Source: Micromonospora zamorensis
GTDB taxonomy: Bacteria > Actinomycetota > Actinomycetes > Mycobacteriales > Micromonosporaceae
NCBI RefSeq assembly: GCF_900090275.1
Contig: NZ_LT607755.1
Coordinates: forward strand, 5,580,001-5,644,000
DNA length: 64,000 nucleotides
Direction: 5' to 3'
The translations under genes and the position numbers were made by a program. The notes beneath the pieces were generated by a model. It made no database searches. It had not been told where the DNA came from and saw only the letters and a program-made list of their open reading frames with translations. Positions 10 through 5,497 of the stretch are shown here, one piece after another. How positions within the stretch are numbered: the first letter of the stretch is position 1; every line of letters begins with the position of its first letter.

Positions 10-591
10 TCAGCTCGCGGTGGGTGGGCGCACCGGCGCGGCCGTGAGCGAGTCGACCGAGCGTGGCGCGGCGGCCTCGCGGGGCGGGGCGTCCAGCGGC
101 GCGGCGAGCACATCGCGCTGGGGCACTCCCCCGATGCCGGACTGCTCGGCGGCGATCTTCTCCTGTAGGCGCAGGATGCCGTGCAGCAGCGCCTCCGGGC
201 GCGGCGGGCAGCCGGGCACGTACACGTCGACGGGGATGAGCTGGTCGACGCCCTTGGTCACCGAGTACGAGTCCCAGTAGGGGCCGCCGCAGTTGGAGCA
301 CGCGCCGAACGAGATGACATATTTCGGCTCGGGCATCTGATCGTAGAGCCGCTTGATGGCCGGGGCCATCTTGTCGGTCACGGTGCCGGAGACGACCATG
401 AGGTCGGCCTGCCGGGGGCCGTGCGCGAACGGGATCACGCCTAGCCTGATGAAGTCGTGTCGACCCATGCTGGTGGCGATGAACTCGATCGCGCAGCAGG
501 CCAGCCCGAAGTTGAAGACCCAGAGCGAGTAGCGGCGCCCCCAGTTCAGCACGAACCGGATCGGCTCACCGAGCACTGCCGGTAGCTGCAC
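10..591 (-). CDS. nuoB: NADH-quinone oxidoreductase subunit B
   Basis: This 193-residue protein is subunit B of respiratory complex I, which holds the terminal N2 [4Fe-4S] cluster that passes electrons to quinone. The four cluster ligands are visible: the adjacent pair C32-C33 in [10 protein letters not shown]98 in [11 protein letters not shown] and C128 in [11 protein letters not shown]. The core is full length; the last 45 or so residues are a low-complexity Ala/Pro tail common in actinomycete copies. The start is GTG at 589-591, chosen because GGGAGG lies six bases upstream. The gene reads leftward out of the window, and no other nuo gene precedes it on its upstream side, so it is either the first gene of an accessory complex I cluster or an isolated second copy; the window cannot decide which. 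Confidence 0.95.
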
Positions 592-655
592 CTCGGGCCT
601 CCCTCAACTGTCTCCGAGTCGACAGTCAATCACAGGCACCACGGCGGCAACCCGC

Positions 656-684
656 GCAACCGATACCCGCGTCGGGGCGTGTGA
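656..684 (+). promoter_or_regulatory. Putative ECF promoter of first sigma module
   Basis: GCAACC at 656-661 is followed after exactly 16 bases by CGTGTGA at 678-684. The same pair with the same spacing occurs at 2534-2562 and 3685-3713, ahead of the two other transcription units of this cluster. An AAC-type -35 is typical of ECF sigma factors, so autoregulation is likely. The downstream ATG is 42 bases from the motif end. The promoter role is inferred from position and repetition. Confidence 0.55.
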
Positions 685-726
685 CCGACGTGACCGCGTT
701 GGCGGCACGCGTACGGGGAGGACCAG

Positions 727-1296
727 ATGACGGTGATGAGGGAGCCACGGCTCGACGAGCCGCCACCCGAGGGGACCGCGGAGCGGTCGGCGCGCTCGCA
801 GGAGCGCGAGGTGATCGACTTCGACGGGCTCTACCATGCGCACTTCCGGTCGTTGACGCTGCAACTCGCCGCCTACTGCGGTGACCTGTCGCAGGCACAG
901 GACCTGGTGCAGGAGGCGTTCTGCCGGGCGTTCGCCCGCTGGTCGCGGGTGTCCCGCTACGACGATCCGGTGGCCTGGGTGCGTCGGGTCGCCTGGAACC
1001 TGGCCACCAGCCGCTGGCGGCGGCTGCGGACAGCCCAGTCGTGGCTGCACCGGCAGCGCGAGGAGCACATGCCGGGGCCGGGGCCGGACCGGGTCGCGCT
1101 CACCGCCGCCCTGGCCCAGTTGCCGACCAACCAGCGCCGCGCCGTGGTGCTGCACTACCTGGCCGATCTCAGCGTCGTGCAGATCGCGGCGCAGGAGGGA
1201 GTGCCGGAAGGCACTGTCAAGTCCTGGCTGCACCGAGGCCGGGCGGCTCTGGCGGTCAGCCTGGCCACCACAGACGAGGTGAACGACAATGACTGA
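727..1296 (+). CDS. SigE-family ECF RNA polymerase sigma factor (copy 1)
   Basis: A 189-residue group IV sigma factor that directs RNA polymerase to alternative promoters. Region 2 covers about residues 30-100 (FDGLYHAHFRSL, then the QDLVQEAFCRAFARW motif and the basic WVRRVAWNLATSRWRRLR stretch). Region 4 with its helix-turn-helix covers about 115-180, ending in EGTVKSWLHRGRAAL. The ATG is preceded by GGGGAGG five bases upstream. Its stop overlaps the start of the next gene by 8 bases, so the two are translationally coupled. The family is the actinomycete SigE type, whose regulon cannot be read from sequence. A close paralog lies at 3760-4320, and the central region is nearly identical between them. 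Confidence 0.93.
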   Translation: MTVMREPRLDEPPPEGTAERSARSQEREVIDFDGLYHAHFRSLTLQLAAYCGDLSQAQDLVQEAFCRAFARWSRVSRYDDPVAWVRRVAWNLATSRWRRLRTAQSWLHRQREEHMPGPGPDRVALTAALAQLPTNQRRAVVLHYLADLSVVQIAAQEGVPEGTVKSWLHRGRAALAVSLATTDEVNDND

Positions 1297-2485
1297 GCTC
1301 GACGATATCCTGGTCGGCGGCGAGTTCGCCGCGTTCCGCGAGGCGTACGCCCCGGCGGTGCGCCCGGCCGGGACGGCTGCGGTGCGGGAGACAATCCGCC
1401 GTCGGCGCCGGCGTACCTCGATGGTCACCGCGGCGGCCGTGGTGCTCGCCGTGGCGATCCCGGTGGGCGCGAACGCAGCCCTGCACCGGCCGCCGGAGCC
1501 CGGACCGGCTCAGACCGTGACTCCGACCCCGTCGGGGACGAGCGCCTCGCCCACCCCGCCCACCTCGCCCGCACCGAGCACGGCCAGCCCCACCTCGGCC
1601 GCGCCGGACGGTCGGATCACCCGGTCGCAGCTGCTCGCCGCCCGACTCGCCCTGCCGCGCTGGCCGCAGGGCGCCCCGACGACCTGCCTCACCGACGAAG
1701 TCCGGCTCCGGTCCGGGTCGCAACAGGACTCGGTGCCGACGCTGCTGGGCGAACCCCGCTACGCCGACCTCGACGGCGACGGTGCCACTGAGACGGTCGC
1801 CCTGGTCGCCTGCCGCCAAGGCGAGGCCTCGGCCAAGCAGGTGATCGCCTTCGACCGGGACGGGGCCGGCCGCGTGGTCACGATGGGCCGAGTGGTCGGC
1901 ACCCGGGAGGGGATGGACGACGTCACGGACTTCGCCGTGCAGGCCGACGGAGAGATCCGGGTGCACGTGGCGGACATCCAGCCCTGCTGCAGCATTCCGG
2001 AGTGGGCGCCGCAGCGGCAGTGGCGGACGTACGCCTGGACCGGCGAGCGGTTCGACCAGACCGCCGGGCCGACGAAGTTCGGGGTCGACCCCCGGCTGAC
2101 CGACCTCACCCTGACGGCCGGTGACCTGATCGTCGGGGCACCGGACGCGAAGGGCAAGCGGGCCGCAACGTTGACCGTCACGGTGGTGAACAAGGGACCC
2201 GTGGACGTGCCCCTGCTCGGGTTCAGCAACTTCTACACAGTTGGGGAGCCCGCCGGCGGGGACCTGGCCCGGTGCCGGGAGGTTCGCTCCGATGGGCCGG
2301 ACGCCTGCGTCCTGGACGGCCTGCCGGCCGGGGATCGGAAGACGTACACCTTCACGTTCCGCTACGCGCCGCCGAGCATCGACAATCCGCCGAACCTGCA
2401 GGTCATCCACTACGACTCCCAGGAGCGGTGGTGGAGCGACCTGAAATGGAAGGACAACGAGGTCGAGCTGAAGACGGCCGGCTAG
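1289..2485 (+). CDS. Membrane-anchored sensor-like partner of sigma factor (copy 1)
   Basis: A 398-residue protein of unknown function coupled to the sigma factor. The first 45 residues are cytoplasmic and Arg-rich, a single membrane helix follows at about 46-62, then a Pro/Thr/Ser-rich linker (about 68-110) and an extracellular domain. That domain holds a calcium-loop-like DLDGDGATE motif, reminiscent of FG-GAP/VCBS repeats, and ends in a beta-sandwich resembling CARDB (from about LTVTVVNKG). The layout of sigma gene plus overlapping single-pass protein is that of sigma/anti-sigma pairs, but no zinc-binding anti-sigma motif is visible, so an anti-sigma role is inference. The gene at 4313-5497 is a paralog with the same order of parts. 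Confidence 0.75.
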   Translation: MTELDDILVGGEFAAFREAYAPAVRPAGTAAVRETIRRRRRRTSMVTAAAVVLAVAIPVGANAALHRPPEPGPAQTVTPTPSGTSASPTPPTSPAPSTASPTSAAPDGRITRSQLLAARLALPRWPQGAPTTCLTDEVRLRSGSQQDSVPTLLGEPRYADLDGDGATETVALVACRQGEASAKQVIAFDRDGAGRVVTMGRVVGTREGMDDVTDFAVQADGEIRVHVADIQPCCSIPEWAPQRQWRTYAWTGERFDQTAGPTKFGVDPRLTDLTLTAGDLIVGAPDAKGKRAATLTVTVVNKGPVDVPLLGFSNFYTVGEPAGGDLARCREVRSDGPDACVLDGLPAGDRKTYTFTFRYAPPSIDNPPNLQVIHYDSQERWWSDLKWKDNEVELKTAG

Positions 2486-2533
2486 CCGCGCGACGACCCG
2501 GGCCGCGGTGTCAGATTGGCGACAGGCGCAGCC

Positions 2534-2562
2534 GCAACCAACCATCCACATAGGACGTGTGC
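2534..2562 (+). promoter_or_regulatory. Putative ECF promoter of the secreted protein gene
   Basis: GCAACC at 2534-2539, 16 bases, then CGTGTGC at 2556-2562. This matches the motif before both sigma operons and lies 61 bases before the ATG at 2624. It suggests that the secreted protein is controlled by one or both of the adjacent sigma factors. Confidence 0.55.
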
Positions 2563-2623
2563 ACACCATCGGGCGACGGAGATGCCGCCGCCCAGCAACG
2601 GGGATCCACGGGAGGACTTCGAC

Positions 2624-3568
2624 ATGACCACACGCACCGTACGGCGGCTGGCCGCCCTTGTGCTCGGCCCGGCAGCGGCGCTGCTGGCGTTCAGCGCACC
2701 CGCCGCGGCGGCACCTGCCGGCCACGGCCTCGACGCTGACGTCTCGGTGGGCCAGCTGGTGCTCAACCCGACCGAGCGCGGTTACCAGGGCAACCTGCCG
2801 ATCACGGTGACGAACCGCGGTCGAGCCGACACCTACTTCAGCGTCACGATCGTCGAGCCGGTCGCCGGCTCCATCGGCAACCTGTCGCCGGACAGCGCGT
2901 GCGGGTTCCAGGGCCTGCAGGACAACCGCCGGGTCGTCAACTGCTCGGTGCCCGGCGACAACCTCAAGCCGGGCGAGCGGCGGTCGTTCACTGTCGCCTT
3001 CCAGGCGCTCACCACGCCACGCGGCGTGGCGATGATCGCGAGGGGAGGCAGGGTCGAGGTGAACGTCGGCGACGGCAGCGAGGCGATCGGGGACGCGGAG
3101 AGCTTCGCCGCGCGCTTCCGCTCCACCTCGGGCTCTCTGCGCAACCCCGTGCCGTACGTGCAGGACAGCCAGGCACGAGCGTCGATCAGCACGGCCGCCG
3201 CGGCCACGCTGGTGCGGCAGGAGGACGGCAGTTACCAGGGCCGACTGCCGGTGACCGTCCGGTGGGCCGGTGACGCCGCACACGATCTCCTCTTCGGCGA
3301 AGCGACCACGTTGCCGGCCGGCGTGCAGATCTGGGGCACCGACCCGCAGGACATGCCGAGCTTCTTCACCAACTTCGTCGTCCCGGGCGGGCGCTTCATG
3401 GCCGGCGAGGAGCGGAGCTTCGATGTGCTGCTCCGGGCGGAGCCCGGCACCGTCCCGGGTGATCTCGGTGCCGCCACCTTCCAGCTCGACACCCAGTGGG
3501 ACGGCCCCGTGGTGGCGGACGCCGACCCGAGCGACAACACCGCCTCGTTCACCGTGGCAGCCGCCTGA
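2624..3568 (+). CDS. Secreted protein of unknown function between the sigma modules
   Basis: A 314-residue exported protein. The N-terminus has Arg residues, a hydrophobic core and an Ala-rich cleavage region (SAPAAAAPAGHG), so a Sec signal peptide of about 28-30 residues is expected. The mature part appears to hold two related beta-sandwich halves: each contains the phrase GxYQGxLPxTV (near VLNPTERGYQGNLPITV and again near EDGSYQGRLPVTV). It has no enzyme motif I recognise. The start at 2624 was chosen over upstream in-frame codons because GGAGG lies eight bases before it and the signal peptide follows directly. Sharing of a promoter motif with the flanking sigma operons suggests an envelope-stress or surface role; this is inference. 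Confidence 0.8.
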   Translation: MTTRTVRRLAALVLGPAAALLAFSAPAAAAPAGHGLDADVSVGQLVLNPTERGYQGNLPITVTNRGRADTYFSVTIVEPVAGSIGNLSPDSACGFQGLQDNRRVVNCSVPGDNLKPGERRSFTVAFQALTTPRGVAMIARGGRVEVNVGDGSEAIGDAESFAARFRSTSGSLRNPVPYVQDSQARASISTAAAATLVRQEDGSYQGRLPVTVRWAGDAAHDLLFGEATTLPAGVQIWGTDPQDMPSFFTNFVVPGGRFMAGEERSFDVLLRAEPGTVPGDLGAATFQLDTQWDGPVVADADPSDNTASFTVAAA

Positions 3569-3589
3569 TCACGCGGCACCGCCCGACCA

Positions 3590-3618
3590 GGGCCCGGGAC
3601 CACTGCGGTCCCGGGCCC
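3590..3618 (+). terminator. Hairpin after secreted protein gene
   Basis: A perfect 12-base stem (3590-3601 with 3607-3618) and a 5-base loop lie 21 bases after the stop codon. There is no clear U tract, as is common in high-GC actinomycetes. Confidence 0.65.
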
Positions 3619-3684
3619 TCGTCGTCGCCGGGGTCGCACCCGAGCAGCTGTCCGGGACCCGACAGACAGTTCCGCCGGTACCCC

Positions 3685-3713
3685 GCAACCGGCTGGCGCG
3701 TCCGGCTGTGTGA
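3685..3713 (+). promoter_or_regulatory. Putative ECF promoter of second sigma module
   Basis: GCAACC at 3685-3690, 16 bases, then TGTGTGA at 3707-3713. Apart from the first base of the second block it equals the copy at 656-684, and the flanking bases (GTGTGAYCGA) also agree. It ends 46 bases before the predicted start. Confidence 0.55.
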
Positions 3714-3759: not shown

Positions 3760-4320
3760 GTGGTTGTGACGAGAGACGAAGGTGTGGGCGGGCGTCCACC
3801 GGACTGGCCGGGCACCGCCGTCCTACCACCGACGAAGCTGGTCTTCGACGACTTCTACCACGCGCACTTTCGCGGGCTGGTGGTGCAGCTGACCGCATAC
3901 ACGGGCGACCGTGGGCAGGCGCAGGACCTCGTCCAGGAGGCGTTCTGCCGGGCCTACACCCGCTGGGACCGGCTCGCCGGGTACGAGGATCCGCTGGCCT
4001 GGGTTCGTCGGGTCGCCTGGAACCTCGGCCACAACCGGTGGCGGCGACTGCGGACCGCCCAGTCGTGGCTGCTGCGGCAGCGGGAGACACACGTCGCGGG
4101 GCCGAGCCCCGACCGGGTCGCGGTCGACGCCGCACTGGCGAAGTTGCCGCCGAAGCAGCGGCGGGCCGTCATCCTGCACTACCTCGCCGACCTGACGGTC
4201 GCCGAGATCGCCGACCAGGAGCGGGTCGCGGAAGGGACCGTCAAGTCCTGGCTGCACCGGGGCCGGGCGGCACTCGCGACCCACCTGCACGACCCCAACG
4301 AGGAGGTGCGGGATGTCTGA
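3760..4320 (+). CDS. SigE-family ECF RNA polymerase sigma factor (copy 2)
   Basis: A roughly 186-residue sigma factor, paralog of the one at 727-1296. Region 2 is recognisable from FDDFYHAHFRGL through QDLVQEAFCRAYTRW and WVRRVAWNLGHNRWRR, and region 4 ends EGTVKSWLHRGRAAL. Two in-frame GTG codons compete as start: 3760 (four bases after GGAGG) and 3766 (ten bases after); I took 3760, which also gives a length close to copy 1. The coding sequence could be extended upstream without a stop, but that part has no sigma-like content and would cover the promoter motif. The stop overlaps the next start by 8 bases, exactly as in copy 1. Confidence 0.9.
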   Translation: MVVTRDEGVGGRPPDWPGTAVLPPTKLVFDDFYHAHFRGLVVQLTAYTGDRGQAQDLVQEAFCRAYTRWDRLAGYEDPLAWVRRVAWNLGHNRWRRLRTAQSWLLRQRETHVAGPSPDRVAVDAALAKLPPKQRRAVILHYLADLTVAEIADQERVAEGTVKSWLHRGRAALATHLHDPNEEVRDV

Positions 4321-5497
4321 GCAGGAGCCCCTCGGCATCGCCGAGGAATTCGCCCGCTACCGCCGTACCGTGCTGGCGGAGGTCGAGGCGCCCGGGCCCG
4401 CCGCCGTCCGTCGGGCCGCACGGCAGCGCGGCCGGCGCCGGCTGGCCGCGACGACCACGGCGGCGCTCGCGCTGCTCAGCGGTTCCGCCATCGGGTACGC
4501 GGCGACGAACGGCCCGGACCCTCAGCCGGGCCCGGTCGAGCCGACGCCGAGCGTGTCGGCGTCGCCGACGCCGAGCGACATCCCCAGTCCCTCCGTGACC
4601 AGCGCCAGCCCGACCTCGACAGTGCCCGACGGTCGCATCAGTCGAGCCAAGCTGTTGGAGACTCCGGTGACCCTGCCGGCGTGGCGGGCCGGTCCGGGCT
4701 GCCCGACGTCACAGATCCGGCTCACCGCTGACGCTCGTGAGGGCACGAACTGGCTCATGGTGCTCGACCACGGGGACGTGGACGGGGATGGTGCGGTGGA
4801 AACCGTGGCGCTCGTGCAGTGCGTGCTCGGCACGGGCGGACCGATGCAGGTGGTCGCCTTCGACCGGAACGAGGACAACGAGGTGATCACGCTCGGCCGC
4901 GTGGTGGCGAGCACCCGCGACAAGCCACAGTGGCTGTTCGCACTTGATGTGGTGGACGGCGGCACGGTTAGGGTGCAGGTCGGCGACCTCGCGCCCGGGG
5001 GCGGCTGGGACGCCAGGTGGTCGCAGCGGCAGTGGCGGAGCTATCGCTGGACGGGTGACGCCTTCGCGCAGACCTCCGGGCCGACGACCTTCGGTCCGAA
5101 TCCACACCTCGTGAACCTCTCGGTGACGGCCGCCGACTTCTCCTGGGGTCCGAAGGAGCCCGACGGGACCCGAACCGGCACGATGGAGGTCGTTGTCCGC
5201 AACGTCGGTACGACGCCCGCCGCCCTCGTCGAGTTGAACCTGGGCTTGCAGCCCGGTGCCGTCGCCGAGGGCGGAGGCTGGTCCGTCTGCGCGGGCGGAC
5301 CCCCGTCGAAGTCGCCACTCACCTGCCGCATCGGACCCCTCGCTCCCGGTGCTACGCGCACCCTCCAGCTCGGGCTGCGGGACAAGAGCACGATGAGCGG
5401 CAGCGGCATCGCCCGGGTCAGGCCGATCGGTGCCGCTGACAACCCGCTGTTCGAGTCGGCGCAGGAGGACAACGAGGACCGCTACCGCTACCGATGA
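4313..5497 (+). CDS. Membrane-anchored sensor-like partner of sigma factor (copy 2)
   Basis: A 394-residue paralog of the protein at 1289-2485. It has a short Arg-rich cytoplasmic start, one membrane helix at about 43-60, a Pro/Ser/Thr linker, an extracellular domain with the acidic loop DVDGDGAVE, and the phrase WSQRQWRSYRWTGDAF that matches PQRQWRTYAWTGERF in copy 1. The C-terminal half looks like a CARDB-type beta-sandwich. It is coupled to its sigma gene by an 8-base overlap. The role as a regulator of the adjacent sigma factor is inferred only from arrangement; no standard anti-sigma motif is seen. Confidence 0.75.
   Translation: MSEQEPLGIAEEFARYRRTVLAEVEAPGPAAVRRAARQRGRRRLAATTTAALALLSGSAIGYAATNGPDPQPGPVEPTPSVSASPTPSDIPSPSVTSASPTSTVPDGRISRAKLLETPVTLPAWRAGPGCPTSQIRLTADAREGTNWLMVLDHGDVDGDGAVETVALVQCVLGTGGPMQVVAFDRNEDNEVITLGRVVASTRDKPQWLFALDVVDGGTVRVQVGDLAPGGGWDARWSQRQWRSYRWTGDAFAQTSGPTTFGPNPHLVNLSVTAADFSWGPKEPDGTRTGTMEVVVRNVGTTPAALVELNLGLQPGAVAEGGGWSVCAGGPPSKSPLTCRIGPLAPGATRTLQLGLRDKSTMSGSGIARVRPIGAADNPLFESAQEDNEDRYRYR

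Follow-up and report, generated by a model that had tools for sequence, protein, structure and literature searches.

A GCAACC-N16-YGTGTG element as the probable promoter of two adjacent ECF sigma operons and an exported-protein gene in Micromonospora zamorensis

Why do two hexamers, GCAACC and YGTGTG, recur exactly 16 bases apart ahead of three neighboring genes in Micromonospora zamorensis, and which proteins are likely to read them? The genes lie in a 64,000-nucleotide stretch (contig NZ_LT607755.1, positions 5,580,001 to 5,644,000), here called the window. They form two modules, each an ECF sigma factor gene followed by the gene of a presumed membrane sensor, with an exported-protein gene between the modules and all five genes on the + strand (Table 1). 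In both modules the last 8 bases of the sigma gene also belong to the sensor gene. The flanking genes are both on the - strand: one is nuoB-like, and the other is presumed, from its translation alone, to encode a PLP-dependent decarboxylase. The nuoB-like gene (window 10-591) adjoins the cluster in many relatives.

The two boxes of GCAACC-N16-YGTGTG very probably serve as -35 and -10 elements in promoters of the autoregulated ECF type. The cluster most likely represents a known kind of circuit, in which an ECF sigma activates its own expression; its -10 is a variant one, and its regulon, judged by the strict motif, is very local. As far as sequence and comparison can tell, an ECF-type promoter stands ahead of the sigma's own operon and goes with that sigma. 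In such a circuit, the short cytoplasmic N-terminus of the membrane partner would most likely hold the SigE-family sigma inactive, and a presumed signal on the sensor's outer domain would free it. The freed sigma, if the local sigmas do recognize these promoters, would then transcribe its own sigma-sensor operon (positive feedback) and also the gene for the exported protein, which has two Ig-like domains and a putative function discussed below.

Table 1. Features of the sigma-sensor cluster, in window coordinates.
Feature	Position	Strand	Remarks
Second ECF-like element, overlapping the sigma-1 promoter	647..673	+	GCAACC (647-652), N17, CGTC (670-673)
Presumed sigma-1 promoter	656..683	+	-35 GCAACC (656-661), N16, -10 CGTGTG (678-683)
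Sigma-1, ECF sigma factor, SigE family	727..1296	+	TIGR02983 143.5 bits, cut-off 141.55
Sensor-1, presumed anti-sigma factor	1289..2485	+	Apparent TM helix (by eye); ectodomain ending DUF11-like
Presumed exported-protein promoter	2534..2561	+	GCAACC-N16-CGTGTG
Exported protein	2624..3568	+	Apparent signal peptide (by eye); two Ig-like/DUF11-like domains; start inferred from relatives
Terminator-like GC-rich hairpin, without T run	3589..3619	+	Between exported-protein gene and sigma-2 promoter
Presumed sigma-2 promoter	3685..3712	+	GCAACC-N16-TGTGTG
Sigma-2, ECF sigma factor	3763..4320	+	62% identical to sigma-1; TIGR02983 136.7 bits, below 141.55
Sensor-2, sensor-1 paralogue	4313..5497	+	33% identical to sensor-1; same architecture

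Occurrence and conservation of the element

A search of the window returned three exact matches to GCAACC-N16-YGTGTG, all on the + strand and with the 16-base spacer that the first-pass annotation had claimed for each; the starts given there (656, 2534, and 3685) are right, but the ends (684, 2562, and 3713) are one too high for a motif of 28 bases. Only 0.02 matches are expected in the window, and 0 of 100 dinucleotide shuffles reached three. Motif-to-start-codon distances are 71 bp for sigma-1, 90 bp for the exported protein, and 78 bp for sigma-2, counted to inferred starts (727, 2624, and 3763); a simple codon-usage gene caller, which was also used to call motif matches inside or outside genes, placed the last two starts at 2582 and 3760 instead. 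Transcription usually starts 5-8 bases downstream of -10 elements. Downstream of the exported-protein gene and ahead of the sigma-2 promoter, a 56-nt stretch containing the hairpin of Table 1 folds at -40.9 kcal/mol (z -5.5), and a hairpin of this strength favors separate transcription units there.

The whole 7.1 Mb genome has four exact matches (reversed-pattern control: 2), three of them in the cluster and the fourth, at 2104738 (L111), within a called gene; together with the results below, this excludes, for the strict form, a motif scattered at random frequency with no link to these sigma factors. A looser pattern, GCAACC-N17-GTGT, has 20 matches against 8 in the control, with 17 of the 20 inside called genes on either strand; the cluster's three sites are the only ones that lie between genes and precede one. 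With one mismatch allowed there are 54 matches, fewer than the 87 in the control, so no wider regulon is visible with this motif. Forty-six of these sites were mapped, the other eight being the four exact matches and four already placed in mapping the looser motif. Nine of the 46 are outside called genes, six of the nine with a same-strand gene start within 250 bp; the two of these six nearest a gene precede DnaX-like and PstC-like genes (translations read by eye). None is persuasive as an extra regulon member. The earlier suggestion of a small self-contained regulon thus holds for the strict motif; weak targets outside the cluster, which may exist, are indistinguishable from noise at one mismatch.

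Conservation was assessed at 77 loci plus the window, where sigma and exported-protein genes were picked by protein similarity. The interval searched for GCAAC[CG]-N15/16-NGTGT began 130 bp before each gene and ended 20 bp inside it, excluding matches starting after query residue 75, sigma matches below 50% identity, genes with less than 130 bp upstream, and repeats sharing their first 150 bases. The element is found upstream of 48 of 58 homologous sigma genes, against a mean of 0.035 (largest 1) in composition shuffles and 0 matches in either the reversed or the reverse-complemented upstream sequences. None of the 28 further ECF paralogues examined in M. zamorensis (the best 30 of 64 SigE-family matches, minus sigma-1 and sigma-2; 28 of 62 others) has it in the 250 bp before the match. 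This comparison supports the description of the motif as an ECF-like promoter. Among the 10 sigma genes without it, that of L072 has GCGACC 15 bases from CGTGTG instead; those of L073, L075, L077, and L080 lie downstream of an exported-protein gene that carries the element; that of L232 has GCAACC with GCTTCT further up; and four (L236, L240, L248, and L260) are without explanation. The L075 sigma gene (L075:7089-7697) appears to be frame-shifted in its region-4 part.

The sigma-gene form of the element, GCAACC-N16-HGTGTKAC, has 60 matches in 52 of 121 same-genus genomes (control: 2) and none in the other 69. Fifty-four of the 60 sit 56-79 bp ahead of a sigma-1 or sigma-2 homologue (50 of 56 mapped together, plus G000, G045, G150, and G141). 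The six strays (L160, L166, L184, L199, L203, and L206) are half in called genes and half outside; the one at L203 is a possible outlying target, standing 80 bp before the gene of an unrelated protein that looks secreted. Similarity searches in 10 other genomes supplied 12 sigma homologues, of which 11 have GCAAC[CG]-N16-CGTGT upstream, including all 10 from other genera, with the element only 13 and 10 bases before an extrapolated start in L259 and L263. At the loci from other genera (L253-L259, L261-L263) the sigma promoter is kept and the partner ectodomain differs in places, which suggests swappable sensors on one sigma type.

Another ECF sigma might read all three promoters, leaving the local sigmas with other targets. 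GCAACC is indeed also found as a -35 ahead of other SigE-family paralogues, with CGTGAC in L010, CGTC in L013 and L015, and, outside the test pattern, as GCAACC-N17-CGTGTT in L018; the CGTC of the second element in the sigma-1 promoter would suit such a sigma as well. The full element, however, precedes none of the 28 paralogues examined out of 62 and accompanies the sigma-1/sigma-2 family into other genera, which makes this reading unlikely. Less probable still is an operator for a DNA-binding regulator. Conservation alone would look the same for operator and promoter, but the boxes are the AAC and CGT typical of ECF promoters, the spacing is nearly fixed at 16 bases (15 in L070), the distance to the gene is that of a promoter, and the cluster maps have no further gene recurring throughout among those labelled. 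That the promoter was simply copied in a recent module duplication, as a repeat without functional meaning, can scarcely be credited: the two modules are paralogues, but sigma-1 and sigma-2 belong to separate clades spread over many genomes and the boxes have been kept while the spacers diverged, as the first reading of the differing spacers had already argued.

Sigma clades and -10 sequences

The sigmas of 60 distinct sigma-promoter pairs form three clades, in which the first base of the -10 is mostly C, T, or A (CGTGTG 26, TGTGTG 16, AGTGTT 16, and two singles). On a quick tree, with 7 of 57 inner branches starred, the -10 label changes four times, the minimum possible, against a mean of 28.5 when shuffled. 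Forty-two of the 60 rows came from the genus pattern search. The 60 were drawn from 64 distinct rows among 81 sigma entries, L072, L075, L077, and L080 being left out for want of a motif; entries without an N-terminal landmark were excluded from both promoter alignment and tree. L162, a clade-2 sigma with a C-type -10, is an exception to the rule, and sigma-2-like genes outside the tree have G (L231 and L234) or C (L249) as the first base. The first -10 base thus appears to track sigma clade broadly, with exceptions, but linked inheritance could also cause the agreement, since a promoter passes down with its gene and common descent would be enough to produce it.

The window has one sigma of the C clade (sigma-1) and one of the T clade (sigma-2), and the exported-protein promoter is of the C type. 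Sigma-1-type promoters mostly have C and sigma-2-type promoters mostly T as the first -10 base, a hint that the two are partly insulated from each other and do not fully share one promoter; in Bacillus, ECF regulons are reportedly separated by single-base -10 differences (PMC6767563). As a weak inference, sigma-1 would be the likelier driver of the exported-protein gene, because the -10 of that gene begins with C, as in the sigma-1 promoter. Of 200 genomes from the family, 47 encode a homologue of the exported protein. The strict element precedes 12 of 29 exported-protein genes within 4 kb of such a sigma and 1 of 21 elsewhere (L085), and the promoters of these genes vary more, with CGTGTC among the forms in relatives and with CGTGCT, ACTTCT, GCTTCT, or GACGTC after GCAACC in several; L072 has a clade-1 sigma, yet GCTTCT at its exported-protein promoter. 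At L067 the exported-protein gene keeps GCAACC-N16-CGTGCA; no sigma match was found at that locus and, of the sensor, only a C-terminal scrap.

The sigma-1 promoter is overlapped by a second element, new here, in which another GCAACC, 9 bp upstream of the -35, is followed 17 bases on by CGTC. Both parts of it are present in 15 of 24 clade-1 promoters, the upstream GCAACC being exact; three others have CGTC with an inexact hexamer, and six have neither. Maintenance of a second promoter for its own sake was considered and rejected: the tree holds only one independent pair on supported branches (six on all branches), and L235, with the upstream hexamer and no CGTC, breaks the pattern. Another ECF sigma may gain entry to the circuit through GCAACC-N17-CGTC, but shared ancestry could explain the distribution of the element.

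Some 60 natural sigma-promoter pairs in which the -10 changes with clade should be useful for decoding ECF -10 recognition, and the series could serve for orthogonal switches in actinomycetes.

Sensors and the exported protein

Sigma-1 and sigma-2 both match Sigma70_r2 and Sigma70_r4_2 above cut-offs (regions 2 and 4), as ECF sigma factors do; only sigma-1 passes the SigE-family cut-off. In the sensors, about 45 N-terminal residues, part of them arginine-rich, lead into an apparent TM helix; a Pro/Thr/Ser-rich linker connects this to an ectodomain rich in beta structure. Class I anti-sigma domains are given as ~100 residues (101 +/- 33), often with Hx3Cx2C (PMC7406223); the ~45 residues ahead of the apparent TM helix do not conform to this, no Hx3Cx2C was seen in the sensor N-terminus by eye in the alignment, and profile searches of the sensors found no anti-sigma family match. 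The N-terminus is predicted to be helical at low confidence (pLDDT about 46-68, blocks 1-50), and would fit a short class II-like anti-sigma segment. By eye, a similar N-terminus is found in the gene after the sigma at 10 of the 12 loci with fetched sigma homologues; it is partial in L255 and missing in L258, whose called gene starts late. In L256, L257, and L259-L261 the partner ectodomain matches the sensors weakly or not at all.

The exported protein is predicted to consist of two beta-rich, Ig-like domains (mean pLDDT 89). In profile comparisons, the last domain of the sensors matches its domain 2 with a probability of 98.4% (P 6.1e-15) and its domain 1 with 97.0% (P 7.9e-11), against 2.4% and 3.6% for reversed decoys; whole sensor and exported-protein alignments match with 97.1% (P 5.3e-11). 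By these comparisons, the outer end of the sensors and the exported protein share a DUF11-like domain, which is new here and is the most interesting feature of the cluster. Pfam DUF11 is matched, though weakly, by 10 of 38 exported proteins and by 2 of 21 sensors; a few sensors are named DUF11 or CARDB in their source. In the window itself, a Pfam search at E 1 gave nothing for the exported protein or sensor-2 and only an irrelevant family (E 0.42) for sensor-1. Integrin alpha chains come first in both PDB structure searches, at low TM-scores (0.09-0.33 among the matches listed, normalized by query length); these predicted-structure matches are read only as "Ig-like," and no function is drawn from them.

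The cluster points to an envelope-signalling module that has apparently not been studied, one in which sensor and output have a domain in common. Having its DUF11-like domain in common with the C-terminal outer part of the sensors, the exported protein could be an extracellular feedback ligand or decoy, competing for or joining a partner that the sensor monitors, but this is a speculative reading and probably not the right one. If true, the output of the sigma would reset its own sensor from outside the cell, in an autocrine loop.

Comparison with known systems

The shared domain resembles DUF11/CARDB-type Ig domains by way of the weak DUF11 matches in relatives, the window's own sensors and exported protein having no relevant Pfam match. 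Class II anti-sigma factors (CnrY), as described in PMC7406223, are a possible parallel to the sensors, whose cytoplasmic part is short (~45 residues), predicted helical, and with no Hx3Cx2C seen; the sensors differ in their large beta-rich ectodomain. With the SigE family (TIGR02983) the cluster shares a sigma-1 above the cut-off and a GCAACC that also precedes several other members in the genome; it differs in that sigma-2 is below the cut-off and the -10 is unlike that of those paralogues. A GCAACC-N16-CGTT site is listed for Corynebacterium (PMC10012870).

According to PMC8103513, ECFs were first defined by their AAC and CGT boxes, by being co-transcribed with an anti-sigma factor, and by regulating themselves positively. 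Like the autoregulated pairs of ECF and membrane anti-sigma factor described there, the cluster has two-domain sigmas, AAC/CGT boxes, an overlapping gene for an apparently single-pass membrane partner, and a promoter ahead of the sigma's own operon. It differs from them in a -10 of CGTGT(G/T) rather than CGTC or CGTT, in a strict-motif regulon that comprises the cluster only, and in having two sigma-sensor modules side by side.
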